From NCBI RefSeq assembly GCF_014467015.1, contig NZ_CP058559.1:186001-250000 (forward strand): a DNA stretch of 64,000 bases, given 5' to 3'. Every line of letters begins with the position of its first letter. Within the stretch, counting starts at the first letter, position 1. This document shows, piece after piece, positions 1 to 55,460 of the stretch. The notes below the pieces were generated by a model. It worked only from the letters and a program-made list of their open reading frames with translations. It ran no database searches and had not been told where the DNA came from. The position numbers were made by a program, and so were the translations under genes. The stretch is from Alkalicella caledoniensis. GTDB lineage: Bacteria > Bacillota > Proteinivoracia > Proteinivoracales > Proteinivoracaceae.

Positions 1-1879
1 TTTCTCCATTGGATGCTGTATCAACTGTGTAGTTGTACTCTGTTAGGTATTTTGTCATTACACTGGTTATGCTCTCTTCATCATCCATTACAAGTATAGA
101 TTTTATTATATTAGTAGGTTTTTGTATTTTCTTCTTTATTTTATGTTTACATGCTATGGGTAAAGTTATGGTAAATATTGTTTCCCCATCTTTAGATTCT
201 GCTTCGATTGCTCCATCATGGTTAGTTATTACTTTATATGTGGTTGCTAAGCCTAGTCCTTGTGAACCTTCCTTTGTAGTAAAATATATATCAAAAATCT
301 TTGGTAGATCTTCTTCTTTTATTCCTGTGCCATTATCTTTAATTATAATGTTTATTGCCTCGTTTTCATCACATGTTGTTGATTTTATAATATTTACTGA
401 TACTTTACCTGCTCCACACCCAAAACTTTCTAAGGAGTTATTAAATATATTTTTAAATGCATGAAGCATTTGACCATAATCAACATCCACTTTAATGTCA
501 GCAAGGGGTGCAACAATTGCATGGTCAATGGTAGTATTTTTAAATACTGAGTCAGATGCCTCTTTGATTATTCTATACAGACTTTGCACTTCTTTTACTG
601 GTAAGCCACCTCGAGCAAATGTAAGTATTTGCTTAGTGATATGTTGGGCTTTGCTAGTCTCTTTATCAATTTCATCTAGACAATATGCTATTCGCTCAGT
701 GTTACCTTGATATTCGTATAGCTTTGCAAGGCCTAAGTTACCTATTATTACTGTTAGTGTGTTGTTAAAGTCGTGGGCTATACCCCCGGCCAGTAAGCCA
801 AGGGATTCTAAACGTTTAGCTTTTTCCATTTCATCTTGGATCCTTACTTTTTCTGTTTCGTCCCGCAATGTATAAACAACACCTGTAACTTCATTTGCAG
901 TTTTTATCTTAGAACATTTCACTTCAACTATTTTTTCTTCATTATTTGATGAAGTAAGTCTTAAAGGCTTATCTATGGAACATTTTATTGGGCAGTTTAT
1001 TTCAGAATTAACCTCATTGTATTTACATAAACTAAAATCTTTTGAATCACCCATAAAGTCAACTACTTTGTTAATGTTAGCACCTAGGGCTTTTGTTACA
1101 CTAAATCCAGTGATTTTTTCTGCAGCAGGATTAAATAGAACAATATTCCCCTTTGTGTCTACCACTATGACTCCATCTGCTATGTTTTTTAATGTGGCTG
1201 CCTGTAGTTCTCTATCTTCGGCTATTATTCTGTTTAGTTTTTGGCTTTTATACAAGTTATTAAATACAAGGATTGGCACGAAAAGTGCTATCACTGTCAT
1301 TATAAAAAAACCTTTATTTAGAGGGCTGGTTTTAATTGTTACTTCATCTGACATTCTTGAGGTGATTGCATTTCGTAGTTTTATCATGGTCTGTTTGTAT
1401 TGTTGGGATAGACTGACGTATGTGTCAGTCATAAATTCGCTTTCCGTGGTATCAAGCTGCATTGATAATAGATTTACTATTTGAGATTTACTATTTATAG
1501 CTTCTAGTTCCTTTGTTCTTAGTTTGTCACAAAGTTCAATTGTCTTTTTTATGTATTGTTCTTCTCTATCAGTTATACCTAGCTGGTACAACTGGTCTAT
1601 TATGTTGTTTCTTATTTTATTGTTGGATAGGTATTTATAGCTTTCCAGTGCTTCTTGATCGCCAAGTACAGTGTATTTTATTGTATACTGGGTATACTCC
1701 TCAGATAGCTTCTCATAAAAGTCTAGTAGTACTAAGTAGTCTATGTATTTGCTTTGTGACCGTATCCCTGCATTCATGAAGTAGTTCGTAAGTATTAATG
1801 CGGAAATTAGGATTGCAAATAACGTTATATGTAAGATTTTAAATGTCTTATTTTTTAGATTAAAAGTTGATAATTTCAA
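1..1879 (-). CDS. Hybrid sensor histidine kinase, C-terminal end cut by window edge
   Basis: Membrane sensor kinase with a receiver domain at its C-terminus; the reading frame runs off the left edge. Translated from the minus strand, it has a first membrane helix right after the start, an extracellular region of about 170 residues, a second helix (near 1250-1310), a PAS domain (around GVIVVDTKGNIVLFN), the H-box GGIAHDFNN (phosphoacceptor His present), and the ATPase motifs DNGTGI and GLGLATT. The receiver begins with ILVMDDEES near position 90. The start is taken at a TTG (1877-1879) behind a GGGGG-rich ribosome site. The GGIAHDFNN type of H-box is typical of hybrid kinases. No partner response regulator is visible. 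Ligand unknown. Family assignment is secure, role is not. Confidence 0.9.
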   Translation of the reverse strand, partial: MKLSTFNLKNKTFKILHITLFAILISALILTNYFMNAGIRSQSKYIDYLVLLDFYEKLSEEYTQYTIKYTVLGDQEALESYKYLSNNKIRNNIIDQLYQLGITDREEQYIKKTIELCDKLRTKELEAINSKSQIVNLLSMQLDTTESEFMTDTYVSLSQQYKQTMIKLRNAITSRMSDEVTIKTSPLNKGFFIMTVIALFVPILVFNNLYKSQKLNRIIAEDRELQAATLKNIADGVIVVDTKGNIVLFNPAAEKITGFSVTKALGANINKVVDFMGDSKDFSLCKYNEVNSEINCPIKCSIDKPLRLTSSNNEEKIVEVKCSKIKTANEVTGVVYTLRDETEKVRIQDEMEKAKRLESLGLLAGGIAHDFNNTLTVIIGNLGLAKLYEYQGNTERIAYCLDEIDKETSKAQHITKQILTFARGGLPVKEVQSLYRIIKEASDSVFKNTTIDHAIVAPLADIKVDVDYGQMLHAFKNIFNNSLESFGCGAGKVSVNIIKSTTCDENEAINIIIKDNGTGIKEEDLPKIFDIYFTTKEGSQGLGLATTYKVITNHDGAIEAESKDGETIFTITLPIACKHKIKKKIQKPTNIIKSILVMDDEESITSVMTKYLTEYNYTVDTASNGE

Positions 1880-3007: not shown

Positions 3008-4843
3008 CTACTTTTTCAATTTAAGATATATTGTTGCTAGAGGAGGGATTAGTAGGGTTAGGGTGTTTTTTTGTGTTGTTTTTGGGGTTGGGTTGTAGAG
3101 GTTTGAGCCGCCGTATTGGGGGAGGTCTGAGTTGAAGATTTCTTGGTAGGTTCCTGGGGTTGTTACTTTTAGTGTGTATTTGTGGTGTACTGTTGGGGTG
3201 AAGTTTGAGATTACTATGAGTATGTTCCTTTCTTTGTCTATTCTTTGATAAGCATAGATGGAGTTTTGGGTGTCATCTGGTTGTAGCCATTGAAAGCCAT
3301 TCCAGCTATAGTCTTGTTCCCAAAGTGTTTTCTCGTTTTTGTATAGATGATTTAACTCTTTTACGTATTGCTGTAGTAGTTTGTGGGGTTTTTCTTCAAG
3401 TAGTTGCCACTGTAATTGTTCATAGTCCCTCCACTCTACTTTTTGCCCGAATTCTCCTCCCATGAAGAGGAGTTTTTTACCTGGATGAGCCATTTTAAAG
3501 CCGTAGTATGCTTTAAGGGATGCAAATTTTTGCCATTGGTCACCTTCCATTTTTTCCAGTAGTGATTTTTTCCCATGTACCACCTCATCATGGGACAAGG
3601 GAAGTAGGAATTTTTCACTGAAACTATATGTCATGGGGTGTGTCAGTTGGTGGTGCTTTACTACTCTCTGGGACACTGGTGTTTGCATGTAGTGGAGAGT
3701 GTCGTTCATCCAGCCTAGGTTCCATTTGTATGAAAATCCAAGGCCATTTTCGTGGGCTTTTTTTGTTACTCCCTGAAATAGTGATGAGTCTTCAGCTATC
3801 ATTAGAGTGTTAGGGTGTAGGTTATCCACCGTTGTGTTTAGCTTTTTTAGGAATTCTATGGCATATAGGTTTTCATTTGTTCCTTTTTCGTTTATTGTGT
3901 GTTCATTGGGAGTTTTACAGAAGTCTAGGTATAAAATGTTAGCAACTGCATCCACTCTTAGGCCATCGGCATGGAATTCTTCGATCCAGTAGATGGCATT
4001 TGAGATTAGAAAACTCAGTACTTCACCTTTACTATAGTCAAAGTTTGATGTTCCCCATTGTGGGTTATCAGCAAGGTATTGTATATGGGATTCATAGCAT
4101 GGTGTTCCATCTAACATTCGTAGTCCGTGGTCGTCTCTGCAAAAGTGACTTGGAACCCAGTCTAATATAACTCCTATGTTGTTTCGATGGCACTGCTCTA
4201 TTAGGCTTTTCAGGTCATTTATACCCCCGTATCTACTTGTAACACTGTAGTACCCTGTTAGTTGATAGCCCCACGATCCATCAAAGGGGTGCTCCATTAT
4301 GGGCATTATTTCTATGTGGGTGTAGCCCATTTCTTTTATGTATGGGATAAGTTGTGCCGCTATTTCTTTATAGTTCATTTGTTGGCCTTTTTTTGTCTTC
4401 CATGTGCCTAGGTGTAACTCGTAGATGTTCAGTGGGCCTTGGTGGACTGATTTTTTCTTCTTTTTTTGCTGCCATTTTTGGTCTTGCCAGGGGTAGGTGT
4501 CTATATCTGCTACCACAGATGCTGTTGCTGGCCTTAGTTCCGAGTAGAAGGCGTATGGGTCAGCCTTTAGTTTTATTTGTCCTTCTGGTGTTGTAATGCT
4601 GTATTTGTATATTTCTCCGGCTTTTATGTTAGGGATAAACATGGTCCAGATTCCTGGGGATATTTGTTTCATGGGATGGGCTAAGGGATTCCAGCTGTTA
4701 AAGTCTCCTACTACGGCAACATTTTTTGCTTTTGGTGCCCATAGGGTGAATGTTGTGCCTGACTCTGTGAGATGCGCACCGAAGTTTTTGTAGGCGTGGA
4801 AGCTGTTGCCTTGGTGGAATTCTTGTATTTGCTTTTTGTTCAT
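3008..4843 (-). CDS. glgB: 1,4-alpha-glucan branching enzyme (GH13)
   Basis: Introduces alpha-1,6 branches into glycogen-type glucan in the cytoplasm. The 611 residues hold an N-terminal CBM48 module (TLWAPKAKNVAVVGDFNSW), then a GH13 barrel with HIEIMPIMEHPFDGSWGYQ, the nucleophile region GLRVDAVANILYLDF, the acid Glu in MIAEDSS, and the LSHDEVVHGKKSL motif, then a C-terminal beta domain. Length and order match GlgB. ATG behind AAAAGGGGG. No other glycogen gene (glgA, glgC, glgP) is in the window, so the gene stands alone between repeat-rich gaps. Confidence 0.95.
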   Translation of the reverse strand: MNKKQIQEFHQGNSFHAYKNFGAHLTESGTTFTLWAPKAKNVAVVGDFNSWNPLAHPMKQISPGIWTMFIPNIKAGEIYKYSITTPEGQIKLKADPYAFYSELRPATASVVADIDTYPWQDQKWQQKKKKKSVHQGPLNIYELHLGTWKTKKGQQMNYKEIAAQLIPYIKEMGYTHIEIMPIMEHPFDGSWGYQLTGYYSVTSRYGGINDLKSLIEQCHRNNIGVILDWVPSHFCRDDHGLRMLDGTPCYESHIQYLADNPQWGTSNFDYSKGEVLSFLISNAIYWIEEFHADGLRVDAVANILYLDFCKTPNEHTINEKGTNENLYAIEFLKKLNTTVDNLHPNTLMIAEDSSLFQGVTKKAHENGLGFSYKWNLGWMNDTLHYMQTPVSQRVVKHHQLTHPMTYSFSEKFLLPLSHDEVVHGKKSLLEKMEGDQWQKFASLKAYYGFKMAHPGKKLLFMGGEFGQKVEWRDYEQLQWQLLEEKPHKLLQQYVKELNHLYKNEKTLWEQDYSWNGFQWLQPDDTQNSIYAYQRIDKERNILIVISNFTPTVHHKYTLKVTTPGTYQEIFNSDLPQYGGSNLYNPTPKTTQKNTLTLLIPPLATIYLKLKK

Positions 4844-45318: not shown

Positions 45319-46575
45319 TTATTCGGATTTTAAATGCTTAACAATCTCTACTCTAGTGGACTGATATGCAAATACTAAGCTAAAAAACACACTTAAAAAA
45401 GTAACACATACCAGAAATAAAATGATTGATTGCATACTTACATAAATTATCCATTGGTTGTAATAAAAAAACTTCTGAATAAATTTAAAAGCAACTGCTG
45501 CATTGATGACCACTATTATAGCAGTGAACACATTTGCCATCATAACAATCATCCCTTCAAGAAAAAATTGGATAATTATGTCTTTGCCTCCTGCCCCTAA
45601 AGCTCTTTTTACTCCTACTTCATAACGTCTTTCTTTAAGTACATTGTTAAAACTACTATATAGATTTATTCCTAAAAGTGTAAAAAGAAGTACGGCAGCA
45701 ATGCCATTTAATAATATACGATTTCTTATTTCTTCATTTGCCCTCATGTGTAAAGTGTATGAAGAGGCAATTGGTAAGTTAAGGTCATCACCTAGTAGAA
45801 TTACTTCCTCAATTTTTTCTGAGTTAATTAGGATTTTTTTCTCTAAATGATCCATATCATACATACTTATAAGATCACTTGATAAGTATGCGGAGACATA
45901 AAAACTATTGTGTCCTGATTCACTGGTAATAGTATCAGTACCTGCCCCATTTGAAACTATGCCAACCACTTTGAATTCTACCAGTTCAGTATCTCCCTCT
46001 TTATCAGTTAGAGGCAAGATAATAGATAAAAAATCTGACTTTTGTTCTAAACTCAATAATTCATAAAAGAGCTCATCTATAAGTATTTCATAAGGACTAT
46101 TTAATCTGTTTTCACCAAAGATAACTTCTACATAACTAAAGTTATTAACTGAGCCTGTATAAAATCCAGGAAACTCCTTAGGCAAAAATATCATTTGGAT
46201 ACCTACAGAGTTTTTTTCATCACTGTAGTATCTTGTTTGGGCATCAGCGGAAAAGTACTGAAAATACTGTGTGTTTTCCATTTTATCCAATTGCTCTATT
46301 AACATATTCTGTTTTAATGTAGTCTGAAGCATTCCTCGTTCAATGATTTGTCCGGTCATTGGGTTGATGGTAAAGGAATTGCTTGCTACTCCTATGGTGG
46401 GAGGTACATTAAAAATTTCTTTATATTTATTATAAATTTGCGAATCAGAAAAAAGAAAAAATGCAAGTAGAAAAGTGAAGGATAAAAATATGGTTACAGA
46501 TAAAAGGAAATAACTTCTTAATTCCCGTTTAACCATTAGTAAGGCGTGGCTCGCCAAGTCTTTAATCTTTTTCAT
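45319..46575 (-). CDS. MacB/FtsX-type ABC transporter permease
   Basis: 418 residues. One N-terminal membrane helix (FLLSVTIFLSFTFLLAFFLF), a large extracellular domain of about 230 residues, then three helices near the C-terminus (GIAAVLLFTLLGINLY, MANVFTAIIVVINAAVAF, IILFLVCVTFLSVFFSLVF) with the FtsX cytoplasmic loop KERRYEVGVKRALGAGGKDI. This is the topology of MacB/LolC permeases that move peptides or lipoproteins by mechanotransmission. ATG at 46575 overlaps the ATPase gene by 14 nt. Last gene of a four-gene operon. Confidence 0.88.
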   Translation of the reverse strand: MKKIKDLASHALLMVKRELRSYFLLSVTIFLSFTFLLAFFLFSDSQIYNKYKEIFNVPPTIGVASNSFTINPMTGQIIERGMLQTTLKQNMLIEQLDKMENTQYFQYFSADAQTRYYSDEKNSVGIQMIFLPKEFPGFYTGSVNNFSYVEVIFGENRLNSPYEILIDELFYELLSLEQKSDFLSIILPLTDKEGDTELVEFKVVGIVSNGAGTDTITSESGHNSFYVSAYLSSDLISMYDMDHLEKKILINSEKIEEVILLGDDLNLPIASSYTLHMRANEEIRNRILLNGIAAVLLFTLLGINLYSSFNNVLKERRYEVGVKRALGAGGKDIIIQFFLEGMIVMMANVFTAIIVVINAAVAFKFIQKFFYYNQWIIYVSMQSIILFLVCVTFLSVFFSLVFAYQSTRVEIVKHLKSE

Positions 46576-47212
46576 GCAAGTAACCACCCTTCAATTCATA
46601 AACCCTACTGGCTCTTCTAGCAACATTTGCATCATGTGTTATTAAAACTACAGCACATCCTCTACTATGGGCATCATCAATTAATTTCAACACTATATCT
46701 TTGTTCTCTTCATCTAAATTGCCTGTTGGTTCGTCAGCAATAATTATCTGAGGATTTAGTATCAAAGCCCTAGCGATAGCTACCCTTTGTTTCTCTCCAC
46801 CACTTAAAACACTAACAGACGTATCAAGTAAATCAAAAATATCCAATTGATGAGCTAAAAAATCTAGGTCCTGTTTTTTACCCTTATAGTACAATGTTGG
46901 TACCAGTATGTTTTCTTTGCATGTAAGGGATGGTATTAAGTTATAATTTTGAAAAATAAACCCTATTTTTTCAAGCCGCATTTTCCAGTGATCTTCTGTT
47001 TTAACTAAGCTAGTACCGTTAAAAGAATAAATCCCATCATCCCAATATTCAATAAGCCCCAATATATTCATAAGTGTTGATTTCCCTGAACCTGATTTAC
47101 CAACAATAGCTATATAGTCATTTTTAGCAATTTTTATATTTATCTCCTTTAAAACAACTCTTTTGTCATATGCTTTATTAATATTTTGCAAATCTATACT
47201 CAAACTACTCAT
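46562..47212 (-). CDS. ABC transporter ATP-binding protein (MacB/LolD type)
   Basis: 216 residues: Walker A VGKSGSGKSTLMNILG, Q-loop GFIFQNYNLIPSLT, signature LSGGEKQRVAIARAL, Walker B IIIADEPTGNLDEE, H-loop LITHDANVA. The GNLD after Walker B and the IFQNYNL segment are typical of MacB/LolD/FtsE ATPases. Start ATG at 47212 overlaps the stop of the upstream membrane-fusion gene by 8 nt (ATGAGTAG), implying coupled translation. Confidence 0.93.
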   Translation of the reverse strand: MSSLSIDLQNINKAYDKRVVLKEINIKIAKNDYIAIVGKSGSGKSTLMNILGLIEYWDDGIYSFNGTSLVKTEDHWKMRLEKIGFIFQNYNLIPSLTCKENILVPTLYYKGKKQDLDFLAHQLDIFDLLDTSVSVLSGGEKQRVAIARALILNPQIIIADEPTGNLDEENKDIVLKLIDDAHSRGCAVVLITHDANVARRASRVYELKGGYLHEKD

Positions 47213-48038
47213 TTTCAAATCCCATTTCACTTCTCATGAGTTGTGCATATCCCGGATCAGCAAACCAACCTTCTTCTACCCCTGTGATAGTTATCATATC
47301 TTTGTTTGCTATCCCCACCTTTACTTCAACTTCACCAATTACCTGCCCTGTACTTTCCACTCTTCTAATATAGTATGGGCCATCTAACTCTTTTTGGTAA
47401 ACACTTTCTTTGCTGACAGTTAATGCATCAGTATAAACAACTCCTGTAGGAATCTCAAATTTTACATGTTCTTGATATAGAAAACTGCCTCCTTCAAGTG
47501 CATAAGATGCCATTCTACCTAATTCAGTCATTACGTTGGATAAAGAAATGAGCTTAATTTTCACGTCCTGATCCACAACATACCATTTGTTCAGTTCTAG
47601 TTTATTAGCATTTTTGGTATCAGTATAGCTCTCTAGTACGAGTTTATCAATATCAAGAATTTTTACATAACCTTCGATGATATTGATTTCTTGTATAACC
47701 CCATTAACACTAGAAGCTAGTGGTTTATTATTTACATATACCAGTGTCCCCCCTATTCTTACTTCTTCATTAAGGGATACAGATATTCTCACCTTCGGAT
47801 TTCTTGTGCTATCCCATTCTACAAAATCAAAGTCATGTGAGTTAAGCTTGCCATTTACATGGACCGTTTCTTCGATATTCATCCTTGAAATTTGAGAAGG
47901 TTCTCCATAACTTTTCGCAGCTATTCGATATTCAATATTAGGTTTGTAATCTTCCATTTCAAGATAGGTTATATAAGCAATGAGAATTATTGGCATAAGG
48001 AATGCCAGTATTCCAGCAACAAAGGTTATTTTTTTCAT
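47205..48038 (-). CDS. Membrane-fusion (HlyD/MacA-like) protein
   Basis: 277 residues from the ATG at 48038 (ribosome site AGAGGT). An N-terminal membrane anchor (FVAGILAFLMPIILIAYITY) is followed by beta-rich segments: a lipoyl/barrel-like part (GGTLVYVNNKPLASSVNGVIQEINIIEG) and a C-terminal MacA-like strand set (VEVKVGIANKDMITITGVEEG). There is no long coiled-coil hairpin, as expected in a bacterium without an outer membrane. Partner of the ATPase and permease encoded downstream. Substrate unknown. Confidence 0.75.
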   Translation of the reverse strand: MKKITFVAGILAFLMPIILIAYITYLEMEDYKPNIEYRIAAKSYGEPSQISRMNIEETVHVNGKLNSHDFDFVEWDSTRNPKVRISVSLNEEVRIGGTLVYVNNKPLASSVNGVIQEINIIEGYVKILDIDKLVLESYTDTKNANKLELNKWYVVDQDVKIKLISLSNVMTELGRMASYALEGGSFLYQEHVKFEIPTGVVYTDALTVSKESVYQKELDGPYYIRRVESTGQVIGEVEVKVGIANKDMITITGVEEGWFADPGYAQLMRSEMGFENE

Positions 48039-48052
48039 CTTTATACCTCTTT

Positions 48053-49183
48053 CTAATGTAAATCCAAATTCCATTCTGTTATTTTATTAAAGTAATCATT
48101 GTAATATGATAAAAAATCAACATTTTCTATCTTTCTAAATATGAATTCATAGACGTTTGGCCTTGTGAGATAATTAGATTCGAAATAAACTACTTTGGAA
48201 TTCCCTTCAATCTCATATTCTATTACCAAATAAATTGTGTTTGAGTAACTTTGTGTGTTGATAAAGTTTTTGTCATTCAATACCACTTTTGGATATAAAG
48301 TAGTCCCCTGTTGTAAGTGCATTCCTTCACCCTTGTTAAATGTTCTATCCATACTAACCCCATCTTTATCTGTTGTAATGGTTATTTCTGCTATTTCTAC
48401 ATTATCATTTATAACTCTTATATCAGTGACTACCAAGTCTTCTAAACTTATAAATTCCATGTCATCGATAACTATCTCGCCTTTTGAATTAGGTTCCACA
48501 GCTTTCCCCCATGCCCCAATATAAACAGGAGAAAGTAAATACTCTGGTATATCAAAATCTGTGGCATAGTCAAGCTCCACTTTACCTATATCAAATTTAT
48601 ATTCTACTCCATTTGCTATTATAAATATTTCTTCAAAAACTTCGTATCCTTCAATTTCTATATCTTCCATCTGAAATTGTAAAATTACTTGATAGTAGTA
48701 AATATCTTTATAATTTTTCTTTTGTAAAATTCTTTCATAGTCTTCACGATACAGCTCATTGAAATCTGTAAATTTTTCCACTGCATAATTATCCATTTCT
48801 GCCCCTACTTCAAGCAAATGCCTTACACCTTGATAGTGTAGTTCATACATTCTTTTCCAATCTAACATCCTAAAGTTCTGGTAAACATAATAAGGTAAGT
48901 CAGTTTCTATAGATATTTTTTCCATACTAATCTCGTAAGGAGTTTCCACATCAATTTTTACATCCACTTCACTTAATTCTTCACTACTTATGACTTCAAA
49001 TGAGATAGACCTAGCTGTAGAAAGCTCTTTATAAATAGTAAGATGATAATTTTCAAATGTGGATAGCAAGGTGCCATCAGTTAATTCGCCTTGTAGATTA
49101 GCATCTGATTTAGATGAACATCCTACAAGTAATACCAAAGCAATTAAAATTAATGCAATGTGAATCAGTGTTAATTTTTTCAT
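48053..49183 (-). CDS. Unknown lipoprotein, first gene of the exporter operon
   Basis: 376 residues from the ATG at 49183 behind GGGGAGAG. Lipoprotein signal MKKLTLIHIALILIALVLLVGCSS with Cys22 (or thereabouts) as lipidation site. The mature part is acidic and beta-rich with no family I recognise; it has repeated EYEIE-, KVVYFES- and FDIGKVELDYATDF-type strands. Position suggests a surface-exposed accessory of the MacB-like exporter (substrate or stress-sensing). Its promoter lies in the 160-bp region shared with the divergent HTH-TPR regulator, so it is a candidate target of that regulator. Confidence 0.7.
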   Translation of the reverse strand: MKKLTLIHIALILIALVLLVGCSSKSDANLQGELTDGTLLSTFENYHLTIYKELSTARSISFEVISSEELSEVDVKIDVETPYEISMEKISIETDLPYYVYQNFRMLDWKRMYELHYQGVRHLLEVGAEMDNYAVEKFTDFNELYREDYERILQKKNYKDIYYYQVILQFQMEDIEIEGYEVFEEIFIIANGVEYKFDIGKVELDYATDFDIPEYLLSPVYIGAWGKAVEPNSKGEIVIDDMEFISLEDLVVTDIRVINDNVEIAEITITTDKDGVSMDRTFNKGEGMHLQQGTTLYPKVVLNDKNFINTQSYSNTIYLVIEYEIEGNSKVVYFESNYLTRPNVYEFIFRKIENVDFLSYYNDYFNKITEWNLDLH

Positions 49184-49278
49184 AACCCCAACTCTCCCCT
49201 TTTTGTATTGTAACAACTTTGCCCCTCACCAGAGGTACATATATAACCATTTAGTCTTCATTCTGTTTGCAGATTATG

Positions 49279-49310
49279 TTGTTTACACAAACAATCTATA
49301 GAATTATAAT
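49279..49310 (+). promoter_or_regulatory. Regulator promoter with a perfect 16-bp palindrome over the -35
   Basis: TTGTTTACACAAACAA (49279-49294) is a perfect 6-4-6 inverted repeat. Its centre contains the -35 TTTACA (49282-49287); 17 bp on is the -10 TATAAT (49305-49310), 34 bp before the regulator's ATG. A protein bound to the palindrome would block this promoter, so autoregulation is likely; the same site could control the divergent exporter operon. Confidence 0.8.
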
Positions 49311-49344
49311 TATATTACAGTATAAGATTTGAAGGGGTGTAAAT

Positions 49345-50256
49345 ATGTCTTATAACCTTGCTGGTTTCGGGGCTAATATAACTGACTTAAGGAAAAACTT
49401 AAAATTAACCCAAAAAAACATAAGTGAGACTTCAGGAATTCATGTGGATACTTTAAGAAAAATTGAGAAGGGAAAGGTAATTCCTACACAAGAAACACTG
49501 GATTTATTATCACTGGTTTTAAATAAGGATTTAAATAAACTATTACTAAACTATCGACTTCAAAACTACTTAGAATATCAAAAAACATCAATGAGCATAG
49601 AAGCTAAACTTGATAAGGATGATTTTAATGAATTAGCCATAGAATTAGACAGATTAAATCAAGTTTTAAATAAAACTAGTCATCTTTTTTTTATAAACCA
49701 AATTAAGCAACTTCAGCTCTTAATAGAGTCGATAATCTTAAATAAAAAGCATGATCTACCCCTTGAATCCCTCTCTAAACTTATTCAAGCCATTTGCATA
49801 ACCACAGGTGGTTTTACACTAAACTCATATGAAAATTTTGTTTATAACACTTTAGAACTAAGAATTCTAATGAATATAGCCCTAATTCTCAATAAAACTG
49901 AATCTGCTGAAAAAAGTTTAGAGATTATGGAATTTTGTATTAAAATGGTTGACCCCTCTGAAAATCTCTATCCAAAAATCTGTTATAATTTAGCCTATAC
50001 TTATCACAGACTGGATCTGCATGAGAAGGCGTTAGAGTATTCTAAGCTAGGTATAGAATTTTGTAATTATTATAGAAATTATAATGGTTTAAACCTCCTA
50101 TACCATAGAAAAGGAGTAGCTGAGTACCATTTAGGTATAGATTCCTATCTTTCTTCTCTGAAAAAAGCTATAAATTTCTGTGATGTACTTGGGCAGGAAA
50201 AGTTAAAGAAATTATTGATAGATAACTGTAAAAAATTCTACAATATTGAGTTATAG
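49345..50256 (+). CDS. HTH-TPR regulator of the RRNPP (PlcR/Rgg-like) type
   Basis: 303 residues. Residues 7-65 are a Cro/CI-type helix-turn-helix (ITDLRKNLKLTQKNISETSG, HVDTLRKIEKGKVIPTQETL). The rest is all-helical, ending in tetratricopeptide-like repeats (KICYNLAYTYHRLDLHEKAL, LLYHRKGVAEYHLGIDSYL, SLKKAINFCDVLGQEKLKKL). This two-part build and length are those of peptide-pheromone receptors such as PlcR, NprR and Rgg. ATG behind GAAGGGGTG. Divergent from the MacB-like exporter operon and convergent with a small pre-peptide gene at 50251-50397 that overlaps its stop by 6 nt. The peptide partnership is inferred from layout and build. Confidence 0.85.
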   Translation: MSYNLAGFGANITDLRKNLKLTQKNISETSGIHVDTLRKIEKGKVIPTQETLDLLSLVLNKDLNKLLLNYRLQNYLEYQKTSMSIEAKLDKDDFNELAIELDRLNQVLNKTSHLFFINQIKQLQLLIESIILNKKHDLPLESLSKLIQAICITTGGFTLNSYENFVYNTLELRILMNIALILNKTESAEKSLEIMEFCIKMVDPSENLYPKICYNLAYTYHRLDLHEKALEYSKLGIEFCNYYRNYNGLNLLYHRKGVAEYHLGIDSYLSSLKKAINFCDVLGQEKLKKLLIDNCKKFYNIEL

Positions 50257-50397
50257 ATCATGTCCGTTTTTAAGGGCGTTCCATTCTATGCTATCATCCT
50301 CACCTGAGAATAACATCGACTTAGTCCCTCCTACACTTACTATGCCAGTTATAACCAATACAACTAATAGTATAAGAGCTACCAAATTCTTTTTCAT
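50251..50397 (-). CDS. Candidate signalling pre-peptide, 48 residues
   Basis: ATG at 50395-50397 with GGGAGG eight bases upstream and its own promoter (50432-50461). The peptide starts MKKNLVALILLVVLVITGIV, a short secretion signal, and continues with a hydrophilic tail of about 25 residues: TKSMLFSGEDDSIEW then NALKNGHDL at the C-terminus. Size and build match exported pro-peptides of RRNPP systems (PapR in Bacillus is also 48 residues), which are secreted, trimmed and re-imported. It is convergent with the HTH-TPR gene and overlaps its last codons. Alternative: an unrelated small membrane peptide. Confidence 0.7.
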   Translation of the reverse strand: MKKNLVALILLVVLVITGIVSVGGTKSMLFSGEDDSIEWNALKNGHDL

Positions 50398-50431
50398 TAT
50401 AAATCCCTCCCATTATTTCTTTCTTATTTTC

Positions 50432-50461
50432 ATCTTATCATTGTTGGGAAAATTCTGTAAA
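50432..50461 (-). promoter_or_regulatory. Promoter of the pre-peptide gene
   Basis: On the minus strand TTTACA (50456-50461), 18-bp spacer, TAAGAT (50432-50437), 35 bp before the ATG. The -35 sits in ATGTTTACAG, which shares TGTTTACA with the palindrome at 49279-49294. Confidence 0.65.
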
Positions 50462-50586
50462 CATGATTCGAATCTGGTTGATTATTTCATCATAACCTTG
50501 TATAATTAACTTTTGGAAAACTAACAACATAAATTGTTCTACAAGAAAGTTATTAATAAAGTAGGTAAAAAAGTTATTACAAACAA

Positions 50587-50624
50587 AAGCAAACCTCAAT
50601 AATTAAATCGAGGTTTGCTTTTTT
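50587..50624. terminator. Bidirectional terminator
   Basis: AAGCAAACCTC / GAGGTTTGCTT with a 12-base loop, T-run on the plus side and T-rich on the minus side. It can end the minus-strand gene at 50653 and also a plus-strand transcript from the regulator; the latter would run antisense through the peptide gene. Confidence 0.8.
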
Positions 50625-51900: not shown

Positions 51901-52662
51901 CTAGCTCTGTAGCTCACTCCATTTAAAGAACTTAGACCCGATCGCAATTAAAACAATGCTGGCACCTAAGACTATTAGTAACTGCATAGGGTATTGTAAT
52001 ACGCTGTGTCCTTGTATCCATACTCCCCTTAAAGCGTACACTCCATGGATAATAGGGTTGAAAACCTCAGCAATCAAAAGAATTCTAGCTGGAAACATTT
52101 CTGGTGGTAAGGTCATTCCTCCTAAGAACATCTGGAAATAAAATACTATCATGGCAACTGATTGGTAAGAAGTACTTTTACTAAAAACACTGGATAAAAA
52201 GAAGGCAATGGCGAATTGCAAAATATTTATGATAGAAAGAACCAGTACAATGTTAAACATATTTCCAAGTGGTATACTAACCCCTTTAGATACCACTGCA
52301 GTTAGTATTAAGGTAGCTATCCCTACAGCCTGAAACAATAGTACTGATAAAAATAATGAGCCGGCAACCTGCACTGGTTTATAGCCTAAAAGCTTATACT
52401 TGATAAAGAAATTGAATTCTACGTGGTTTGCCAACATTTGGCCAAATATAAGGACTACTGTATTTGAGATTATTAATGGAATATATGCTGGTAATAAAAA
52501 ATCTATGGCCTTCAGAGTCCCTTCGTAATACACTTCTCCTTCTAAGAGATTGCTAAAAAATATATACATTATCATGGGAAAAGCGATGATGAAAAACAAG
52601 TTCATAAAATCCCTTGTTTGTAATTTAAATTGATAAGATATTAAAGCCATTAGCTTATTCAT
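51901..52662 (-). CDS. ABC-2 type transporter permease
   Basis: 253 residues, six predicted membrane helices, with the ABC-2 family layout: N-terminal ISYQFKLQTRDFMNLFFIIAFP, central FLSSVFSKSTSYQSVAMIVFY and the MFLGGMTLPPEMFP motif followed by FNPIIHGVYALRGVW. Pairs with the ATPase encoded just upstream, whose stop it overlaps by 8 nt. Exporters of this class move drugs, peptides or lipids; the adjacent LytTR two-component system suggests an inducible peptide or antibiotic response. Confidence 0.88.
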   Translation of the reverse strand: MNKLMALISYQFKLQTRDFMNLFFIIAFPMIMYIFFSNLLEGEVYYEGTLKAIDFLLPAYIPLIISNTVVLIFGQMLANHVEFNFFIKYKLLGYKPVQVAGSLFLSVLLFQAVGIATLILTAVVSKGVSIPLGNMFNIVLVLSIINILQFAIAFFLSSVFSKSTSYQSVAMIVFYFQMFLGGMTLPPEMFPARILLIAEVFNPIIHGVYALRGVWIQGHSVLQYPMQLLIVLGASIVLIAIGSKFFKWSELQS

Positions 52663-53563
52663 TTATAATCCTCCCTTCTTTGTCTAATTTGTACCCAGCA
52701 ATCTTCAAAAACACATCTTCTAATGTTGGAGATTTAACCACGAGGTTTTTAATGCCTACTTTGGTGATAAGCTCCATTAACACTTTTTCATCGTCTTTAG
52801 TGTAAATCTGGTATCTGTCATCATTTAAAGGTATAGCCCCATACTTATCAAGCTTAAAGCTTGCCATAGGGTCCTTTATCTGAAACTCTATAACCTTTTC
52901 CCCTTGGGAGTACTGATCAATAGCTGTAGTAACACCGCCAAGATAAACCATTTCCCCTTTGTTCAAAATCATTATCCTGTCTGCTAAGTATTCAATCTCA
53001 TCTAAAAAATGACTAGTTATAATTATGGTCACATTGTTCTTTCTGTTTATTTCCCTTAATACTTCCCAAATCTTTCTCCTAGCCACTGGATCTAACCCAG
53101 TGGTTAATTCATCTAAGAAAACTACCTCAGGCTGATTTATTAAGGTTAAAAGAATTGAAAGCCGTTGAACATTTCCACCAGAAAGCTTTTTAATGTAGGT
53201 GTCTTTCTCTTTGCTCAGGCCAAACCCATCTAGCATCTCATCAAGATCAATATCACTCTTAGTTAACTTTTTGTATAGGTTACAAATATCTATTACCTTA
53301 GCATTGCCTTCGAAATAATTTTTTTGCATTTGTACACCTATATGGTCATACATACTTTTGCGATCAAATAGATATTCAACATCACCTTCATCGGGCTTGT
53401 AGATATCTACCATGGTGTTAATCAAGGTGCTTTTCCCTGCACCATTGTGTCCAACTATACCTAAAATTTCTCCCATCTTAACATCAAAACTAATATTATT
53501 TAGGGCCACTTTATCTTTAAATGACTTTTTAAGCCCTTTTACTGTAATTACGCTATGGCTCAT
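52655..53563 (-). CDS. ABC transporter ATP-binding protein
   Basis: 302 residues: Walker A GHNGAGKSTLINTMV, signature LSGGNVQRLSILLTL, Walker B VVFLDELTTGLDPVARR, H-loop IIITSHFLDEIEYLADR, and a C-terminal extension ending in the ABC-2-associated segment VKSPTLEDVFLKIAGYKL. This is the CcmA/DrrA/NatA type. ATG after GGAAGGGG. Co-transcribed with the permease. Confidence 0.92.
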   Translation of the reverse strand: MSHSVITVKGLKKSFKDKVALNNISFDVKMGEILGIVGHNGAGKSTLINTMVDIYKPDEGDVEYLFDRKSMYDHIGVQMQKNYFEGNAKVIDICNLYKKLTKSDIDLDEMLDGFGLSKEKDTYIKKLSGGNVQRLSILLTLINQPEVVFLDELTTGLDPVARRKIWEVLREINRKNNVTIIITSHFLDEIEYLADRIMILNKGEMVYLGGVTTAIDQYSQGEKVIEFQIKDPMASFKLDKYGAIPLNDDRYQIYTKDDEKVLMELITKVGIKNLVVKSPTLEDVFLKIAGYKLDKEGRIINE

Positions 53564-53690
53564 TTCACAAAACCCCTTCCATTTCCTTTGTTAACTATAT
53601 TTTAGCATTGCAACTACAAATCAGGAATACATTTGAATCCCGTATATGGGGAGGTCAATCCCTAGATTTCTGTTTTTAAGACAAAAATGT

Positions 53691-53712
53691 AACCTGCTAC
53701 TTTTAGCAGGTT
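53691..53712 (-). terminator. Terminator of the LytTR two-component operon
   Basis: AACCTGCTA / TAGCAGGTT with a four-base loop at the end of the response regulator gene, then ACATTTTTG on the minus strand. It separates the operon from the ABC transporter genes. Confidence 0.78.
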
Positions 53713-54424
53713 AACCTTTCAACAAATGAATTTTGTCTTTAGTTATAAGGGCGTTTTTACTTTCATCTGTGTTTTTAAAATATATTATATAGGATGTATC
53801 CCCATATGGCTCAATCTCTTGTATGTTTTTGAGATTTACAATATATGATTTATGGGTTCTGAAGAAATTTCCCGTTAACCTCTTTTCTATATCGTTTAGG
53901 CCAGAGCGTGTTTTATGAGTCTTCTCGAAGGTGTGGATCAACACCTCTTTATTGTCTTTTTCAATATAGTTTATCTCTGCCATATTTATCATGTAATATT
54001 TTTGTTTATCCTTTATCATCAGTATGTCATTTTCTTTAAGGGACTCTTCAAATTTATCACCGTTGGATTCTTCAATTATATTTTCAACATTTTCCTTAAC
54101 CCGGGTAAAATCAATGGGCTTAAGTATATAGTCATATGCTCTTATTTCATAAGAGTCAAAGGCATAGTCTTGAAAAGCAGTCACAAAAACAACCTTCAGG
54201 TTCTCCTTTAAACCCATCATAATTTTAGCAGCTTCTAGGCCATCTAGTTTTGGCATGTCTATATCCATAAATGCCAAATTGATATCTTCTTTTTTTACTA
54301 TATCAACGGCCTGTTGACCATCATAAGCCAAAAATATTTCATTAACTTGCGGATGTTCTTCAATAACTTTTTTTAAAACCTTAGCAGTATAAATATCATC
54401 ATCACATATTAATACATTTATCAT
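53711..54424 (-). CDS. LytTR-family response regulator
   Basis: 237 residues. Receiver domain with DDD (residues 8-10), the phosphorylated Asp in LAFMDIDMPKLDG, VFVTAF and KPIDF; then a LytTR DNA-binding domain (KYYMINMAEINYIEKDNKEV, FFRTHKSYIVNLKNIQEIEP). Such regulators bind direct repeats before peptide, bacteriocin or cell-wall genes. It is encoded 6 nt after its sensor kinase. Targets may include the ABC transporter downstream. Confidence 0.93.
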   Translation of the reverse strand: MINVLICDDDIYTAKVLKKVIEEHPQVNEIFLAYDGQQAVDIVKKEDINLAFMDIDMPKLDGLEAAKIMMGLKENLKVVFVTAFQDYAFDSYEIRAYDYILKPIDFTRVKENVENIIEESNGDKFEESLKENDILMIKDKQKYYMINMAEINYIEKDNKEVLIHTFEKTHKTRSGLNDIEKRLTGNFFRTHKSYIVNLKNIQEIEPYGDTSYIIYFKNTDESKNALITKDKIHLLKG

Positions 54425-54430
54425 CTTTTT

Positions 54431-55264
54431 TTAATCCCTCAATTCCACTTGAAAGGTAATATTTTCTCCATCTTGATAAACATCTATTTGCCCTTTGTTT
54501 TGCTCCACTAAGTCTTTAACTATACTTAAACCATATCCTCTTCCAGTAGAAGATTTAGATGAAAATCCTTGAGAAAAAAAGCTAGCAACGTCTTTTTCAT
54601 CATCTTGATAAGGATTACTAATCTTGAATATATATCCCTTTAAGTCATCTCTATTTTCTAGATAAAAGCTCACTTTCTGAGGCAACTCATTATGTGTTAG
54701 TACATGTTCCATGGCATTGTCTATTAAGTTTCCAACAATATTTGCAAGGTCCCAAGGGGCAATATTTTTCAATTTTACCCTACAGTATTTTTCTATGATG
54801 AATTCTATGCCCTTTTGATTTGCAAGTTCTTTTTTAGTATTTATAAGGGCCGTAAGGGTAGGGTTTCCTAAGCGCAAAAAATGTCCTGTGAATCGATAAT
54901 TATTTGCTATGCCTTGCAGGTACTCTTTTGCCACCTCATATTCTTCTAATATCAACATCGATGTAACAGTCTGTATATTATTGATATGATCATGGCCTTG
55001 TTTCCGAAGCAAGTCTATTAGAGACTCGGTATTTTTTAGATCACTCTTTATCATCTCTAGCTCTTTTTCTTTCCTTAAAGATCTAATTATGTAGAGGAGG
55101 ATTGCTAAATTACAAATGGAGAGGCTTAATATTATAGCTAATATAACATAAAGAGCTGCATTTGCACTACTTAAAACATTTAAGAATATAACTAGAACTA
55201 AAATTACCAAAATGGTAAGGGAAATACTAATAAAAGATATTATATAACCTTTCCTTTTATCCAT
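54431..55264 (-). CDS. Sensor kinase of the Spo0B/CitA-like (GHKL) type
   Basis: 277 residues: two membrane helices at the N-terminus (IISFISISLTILVILVLVIF and AALYVILAIILSLSICNLAI), a short cytoplasmic helix, the His motif LRKQGHDHINNIQTV, an N-box in NIVGNLIDNAMEHV and a G-box GRGYGLSIVKDLVEQN. No extracellular domain of note, so it probably senses within or near the membrane, as peptide- or antibiotic-sensing kinases do. ATG at 55264 behind GAGGTGG. Confidence 0.9.
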   Translation of the reverse strand: MDKRKGYIISFISISLTILVILVLVIFLNVLSSANAALYVILAIILSLSICNLAILLYIIRSLRKEKELEMIKSDLKNTESLIDLLRKQGHDHINNIQTVTSMLILEEYEVAKEYLQGIANNYRFTGHFLRLGNPTLTALINTKKELANQKGIEFIIEKYCRVKLKNIAPWDLANIVGNLIDNAMEHVLTHNELPQKVSFYLENRDDLKGYIFKISNPYQDDEKDVASFFSQGFSSKSSTGRGYGLSIVKDLVEQNKGQIDVYQDGENITFQVELRD

Positions 55265-55460
55265 AACATGCACCACCTCTGAACTTCAGTGTTTATCGCC
55301 TCTAGTATATATTAAACAGGCATTAACAATATCCTTTTTTTTAATGTAGAATTTAATACTTCTGATGTAGATTGTTGAGGTGAATGTAACCACTAAGAAA
55401 TATCCATAACGGATAACAAACTAATTCGATACTTAAGGGGAGAAGCCCTCTAAATTTTTC

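Follow-up and report, generated by a model that had tools for sequence, protein, structure and literature searches.

Alkalicella caledoniensis carries a gene for a protein with an HTH domain and a TPR region and, on the opposite strand, a short open frame that runs into its end. The question that this locus raises is whether the two encode a receptor and its own peptide signal, as a preliminary description of the DNA proposed, and if so to which kind of system they belong and what they control. We analysed the whole stretch of 64,000 nucleotides (the window, to which coordinates refer unless another locus is named) and compared the pair with about 30 related loci. Very probably the pair is a self-contained, autoregulated peptide quorum-sensing module of the RRNPP type. 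The two genes and their parts are as follows.

49331-49339, plus strand: receptor ribosome site, GAAGGGGTG
49345-50256, plus strand: HTH-TPR receptor of 303 aa, with HTH_3 at residues 14-65 and the TPR/RNPP_C region at residues 163-298
50251-50397, minus strand: pre-peptide of 48 aa, MKKNLVALILLVVLVITGIVSVGGTKSMLFSGEDDSIEWNALKNGHDL, convergent with the receptor and overlapping it by 6 nt at the stop
50308-50397, minus strand: putative secretion-signal part, residues 1-30 (MKK and a hydrophobic stretch), from sequence and hydropathy scans
50281-50304, minus strand: predicted core of the signal at residues 32-39, GEDDSIEW, which is conserved among relatives
50254-50280, minus strand: variable C-terminal tail NALKNGHDL, residues 40-48, differing from those of loci L046 and L048
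50405-50411, minus strand: pre-peptide ribosome site GGGAGGG, from sequence

An 18-mer region of the pre-peptide reads SGEDDSIEWNALKNGHDL. Both convergent frames were confirmed, with the short overlap that had been claimed for them, as were the strong ribosome site and the secretion-signal N-terminus ascribed to the shorter one, which begins with ATG and in hydropathy scans has a strongly hydrophobic stretch after the MKK. The longer frame is an HTH+TPR protein as described: in Pfam HTH_3 was found at 7.9e-11 (42.3 bits against a cut-off of 23), and RNPP_C (2.3e-5) and TPR_8 each fall just under the family cut-off. The AlphaFold model of the receptor (pLDDT 92) is an all-helical TPR structure resembling PlcR; its top structural match in the PDB is the PlcR:PapR7:DNA complex (3u3w, E 1.7e-8, 19% identity); next come ComR and then Rgg receptors (Rgg2), and Rap matches more weakly. 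PlcR was absent both from the PDB-chain matches of a single-sequence search (E up to 1) and from the best 60 profile matches among PDB chains, so the likeness of the receptor to PlcR is one of fold and not of close sequence. Weak Pfam/NCBIfam matches of the pre-peptide to T4SS_pilin and ChpT were dismissed as matches to its hydrophobic stretch, and Rfam gave no match near the pair.

The pair has the testable features by which the main text of PMC10075063 recognises RRNPP systems. The receptor lies in the range of 250-500 aa with a TPR-type peptide-binding domain, and its HTH_3 supplies the N-terminal HTH of the DNA-binding subgroups; the adjoining gene, with its 48 codons and 6-nt overlap, is a small propeptide gene (10-100 aa, at -60 to 400 bp), and its product combines a predicted export signal with a separate, putatively mature segment that holds the conserved core.

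The genome of A. caledoniensis (3.7 Mb, one contig) contains three receptors of this type, and two sister-genus genomes have six and eight matches, fragments counted; across the phylum, a strong receptor match was found in 11 of 399 sampled genomes. A single-sequence scan of public genome contigs returned no relative, whereas an alignment/profile scan of public genomes recovered 29 receptor loci with identities of up to 62%, in Tissierellia, [Clostridium] ultunense, Thermoanaerobacter, Caldanaerobacter, Proteiniclasticum, Youngiibacter and others. No relatives were found in plasmid, phage and viral-contig collections, and there is thus no sign of a mobile-element origin for the receptor.

A conserved short frame accompanies these receptors. 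At two loci, one in a Tissierellia MAG (L046) and one in [Clostridium] ultunense (L048), the pre-peptide gene has the orientation that it has in the window, convergent with the receptor and overlapping its stop, and the three receptors branch together with moderate support (SH-aLRT 80). About 20 further relatives have a divergent, signal-bearing pre-peptide gene with a related core and a strong G-rich ribosome site, some 100-460 nt ahead of the start of the receptor gene. One fixed filter, which asked for a signal-bearing ORF preceded by a strong ribosome site, was applied throughout: 23 of 37 homologous receptors have a qualifying pre-peptide at an allowed position, whereas random positions within these loci qualify in 6.4% of cases. 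Six receptors lack a recognisable pre-peptide (L004, L006, L018, L045, L047, L050) and four have a degenerate one (L007, L016, L021, L054). A case apart is L013, where the pre-peptide gene (1242-1391, minus strand) has a strong ribosome site and looks intact except for an apparent ATT start. The preliminary description proposed to look beside orthologues for a signal-bearing short frame with a varying tail, and such frames are present at L046, L048 and the divergent loci; fold, adjacent pre-peptide and core together support its reading of an RRNPP-type receptor with its pre-peptide. The convergent layout, which it set against that of plcR-papR, is common to the window, L046 and L048 and, judging from the loci compared, belongs to this small clade, most of the family being divergent.

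The conserved part of the pre-peptide is an internal acidic segment with tryptophan. The pre-peptide of L046 ends in IAGEDDSIEWYSYELGDTLL, with the core AGEDDSIEW, and that of L048 ends in IAEKDDAIEWNNYEIEDIQQHLF, with the core AEKDDAIEW; GEDDSIEW is identical in the window and L046, with four of the eight codons differing, all synonymously. The segments that follow are NALKNGHDL in the window, YSYELGDTLL in L046 and NNYEIEDIQQHLF in L048. At most other loci the core is one such as DIYEW, DEDYEW, EPEYEW, DDDYEW, DPVIEW, GMIDW or GEIEW; a basal branch of the same receptor clade has GEEDMIWLH, with GEDDLIRLH and GEEDLIRWH as likely kin, and a second receptor clade has GE(E/D/N)DIPR followed by a hydrophobic residue. 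On the receptor tree, core types sort with clades. A loose regular expression for the core separated near and far candidates poorly, and a core profile with held-out rows was therefore used: built from the peptides of the other loci without L046 and L048, it ranks the window pre-peptide first among 3313 open segments in 64 kb, and no score as high came from 2000 shuffled tails.

Several precursors carry tandem arrays, with three units in L030, eight in L031, six in L032, four in L052 and six complete 9-residue units in L053. In L031 (G011), where the precursor lies upstream of the receptor, seven of eight units read GEEDIPRIF and the last reads GEEDIPRIP, while core codons vary and linker residues differ; in L053 the GEDDLIRLH units follow one another without a linker. 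A fixed core in tandem units and the linker-free array indicate a signal of about 8-9 residues, so that even without mass spectrometry these precursors suggest where the signal begins and ends. By alignment they point to GEDDSIEW(N) as the putative signal of the window. The preliminary description had placed the mature signal in the hydrophilic tail or a short piece of it. An internal piece, the acidic-plus-Trp core, is favoured here, and NALKNGHDL alone is an unlikely signal because it varies between relatives; the signal probably contains the internal GEDDSIEW and not just the terminal nonapeptide. Further acidic-IEW coding patterns in the genome all lie in unrelated frames, and hence no orphan signal was found.

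The upstream regions of the two genes differ in one element.

49282-49310, plus strand: receptor promoter, TTTACA-17-TATAAT (11/12), with the family operator absent
50432-50461, minus strand: peptide promoter, TTTACA-18-TAAGAT with extended TG (9/12)
50460-50479, no strand: palindromic operator AACATGATTCGAATCTGGTT, which differs from the family pattern AACCnGATTnnAATCnGGTT at one place and overlaps the -35 of the peptide promoter

A promoter of its own had been claimed for the short frame. The match alone is weak evidence, as 1.8 kb can be expected to contain about 10 matches of this quality, but the call is strengthened by the palindrome that overlaps its -35. An inverted repeat of the family pattern, or a variant such as CCCACTTTAAAGTGGG, is present in the intergenic regions of many loci. 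Among the 23 peptide promoters examined, 10 have its end reaching 2-3 nt into the -35 and its centre 68-87 nt ahead of the pre-peptide start; the window operator occupies the corresponding position. It scores 15/18, a score reached in 0 of 200 shuffles, and although the pattern was written after viewing all loci, the window included, the consensus fixed by the other loci also gives 15/18. Across the 3.7-Mb genome the single one-mismatch match is the one at the window peptide promoter, and the only others with up to two mismatches are two sites inside genes; the family operator is absent from the receptor promoter, from 49181-49344 and from neighbouring genes within the window. Since this promoter is the one place outside genes where the operator occurs genome-wide, peptide production is the one target that the sequence supports. 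The further operator-like sites of the genome (L097, L098), being within genes, were put down to chance.

We infer a cycle of export, processing, uptake and binding in which the pre-peptide would leave the cell by its N-terminal signal, be cut outside to a short signal containing the GEDDSIEW segment, be taken back in by an oligopeptide permease and bind the TPR domain of the neighbouring receptor. Three SBP_bac_5 (oligopeptide-binding) proteins are encoded in the genome and are candidates for the re-import. A receptor dimer would bind the palindrome abutting the -35 and control production of its own signal, with the receptor gene expressed from the separate, operator-free promoter. The sign of this control is somewhat more likely to be activation, that is, positive feedback. 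It may instead be the opposite, with free receptor repressing the peptide promoter through the palindrome and returning peptide releasing it, a lesser possibility though one of some weight: overlap of operator and -35 suits repression too, and some RRNPP receptors, such as Rgg3, come off DNA upon peptide binding, but the closest fold to the receptor is PlcR with peptide and DNA, which is an activator complex, a distance of about 44 nt from the operator centre down to the likely transcription start of the peptide gene suits class II activation, and the peptide promoter hexamers are imperfect.

Two further features of the window bear on the transcripts and on what the module might control.

45319-49183, minus strand: possible output operon on the same strand as the pre-peptide gene and divergent from the receptor, linked to the pair by position
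50585-50622, no strand: strong inverted repeat with a T run, a likely terminator at putative transcript ends

The operon, at which no family operator was found, encodes a lipoprotein-like protein, an unassigned exported protein, an ABC ATPase and an FtsX/MacB-like permease. At related loci the peptide-side neighbours include radical SAM/SPASM proteins (L025, L027), YcaO/SagD (L037), a LanC-like protein (L051), subtilases (L044, L046) and ABC exporters, and the lipoprotein-ABC-permease operon holds the corresponding place in the window. These neighbourhoods suggest that modules of this type control secreted products or transporters. On the peptide side of L048, upstream of the receptor at 4001, a family operator of its own precedes the gene of a lipoprotein that is of the oligopeptide-binding kind and has a peptidase-like domain; this suggests that in [Clostridium] ultunense peptide uptake itself may be under control.

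Other observations were made around these loci. The second receptor of the A. caledoniensis genome (L025, G000:C1:642000-656000) has its pre-peptide upstream (ending AEKESDIYEWHMYDEFI), followed by a radical SAM/SPASM gene apparently cut by transposase-like genes. The third (L026, G000:C1:2558000-2572000) has no recognisable pre-peptide; beside it are two radical SAM proteins, a PqqD-like protein and an ABC transporter, which may form a RiPP cluster. Upstream of the receptors of L041, L034, L035 and L070 are small secreted proteins that match no Pfam/NCBIfam family; some adjoin MacB-like permeases, and they are possible undescribed bacteriocins. Within the window, ABC transporter genes and then a LytTR-type response regulator and sensor kinase at 51901-55276 form a possible second signalling cassette close by.

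Between the convergent receptor and pre-peptide genes nothing resembling a terminator was found, and antisense overlap of their transcripts is for that reason possible; the receptor mRNA, if it ends at 50585-50622, would cover the entire pre-peptide gene antisense. The antisense interference that the preliminary description thought the layout would allow may follow from such overlap. The receptor gene sits on the opposite strand between the peptide gene and the MacB-like exporter operon, and with these two on the same strand and no terminator-like site, read-through into the exporter operon might occur. The peptide transcript, controlled by the signal and running antisense through the receptor gene, would then form a non-contiguous operon acting as a quorum switch, with receptor mRNA and signal-plus-output mRNA mutually exclusive; we regard this arrangement as improbable.

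It is quite unlikely that the short peptide is a bacteriocin or RiPP precursor and the receptor only its regulator, sensing something else. RiPP and export genes do stand beside the pre-peptides of relatives—the maturase genes of L027 and L025, the YcaO/SagD gene of L037 and the LanC-like gene of L051 among them—but they change from locus to locus while the design of the pre-peptide stays, and the pre-peptide gene is the only one regularly paired with the receptor. The window is without a maturase gene, the pre-peptide N-terminus is of Sec type and not a RiPP leader, and the core type follows the receptor clade. The possibility that the short ORF is a frame left open by chance where the receptor gene ends is refuted by the comparison with relatives, for although short open frames and promoter-like matches are common in AT-rich DNA, its position, core, ribosome site and operator are conserved in other bacteria, the codon changes in its core are synonymous and its profile rank is the highest in the window; on this comparative sequence evidence the 48-codon frame is a real gene.

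Among known systems, PlcR-PapR of the Bacillus cereus group is alike in its HTH-TPR receptor of about 300 aa (the best structural match), its small secreted pre-peptide adjoining the receptor and its palindromic operator. It differs in that the conserved window core is acidic plus Trp and internal, with the variable 9-residue tail after it, and in layout, which is convergent here and divergent in most relatives; the whole-receptor sequence relationship to PlcR that marks the PlcR-PapR subfamily was not found in the searches of PDB chains, and the mature window signal may or may not share the C-terminal position that is the other mark of that subfamily. Qsr-Qsp of Clostridium acetobutylicum and QssR-QssP of C. 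saccharoperbutylacetonicum are likewise clostridial RRNPP pairs with several per genome, and the active QspB7 peptide AEPTWGW also has a Trp (PMC7376267), but in them the precursor gene comes after that of the regulator, and the cores are different. AloR-AloP of Paenibacillus resembles the present family in its many paralogous pairs per genome and adjacent secreted pre-peptide (PMC7425212) and differs in lineage, in short signals such as SHGRGG and in a pre-peptide gene downstream of the receptor. Rap-Phr precursors carry tandem pheromone copies (PMC11343458), as do the array precursors described above, but Rap is without a DNA-binding HTH and acts on other proteins, and the cores are unrelated.

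The clusters of RRNPP_detector, as the main text of PMC10075063 describes them, follow the same logic as the window pair, with a TPR receptor of 250-500 aa and an adjacent secreted propeptide. Of the lineages looked for, that main text names only Tissierellaceae, once, beside a biosynthetic cluster, and the survey of complete Firmicutes genomes behind it may contain some of these pairs. No description of the receptor subfamily or of the core was found in the literature covered, which took in the main text of that paper. The pair thus apparently represents an undescribed subfamily of the known RRNPP type.

The mechanism itself is known, and the novelty lies in the signal code, in the operator and in how widely the subfamily is spread among taxa. 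The receptor subfamily has a readable signal code, in which clades have matching core types and a matching operator, and it extends from the class of anaerobes that includes A. caledoniensis, where a genome may have up to 8 copies, to Tissierellia, Thermoanaerobacter and Proteiniclasticum, groups on whose peptide signalling little was found in the literature covered. Because many of the copies lie beside RiPP, secreted-protease and ABC-exporter genes, the predicted peptides could be used to test whether they switch silent clusters on.
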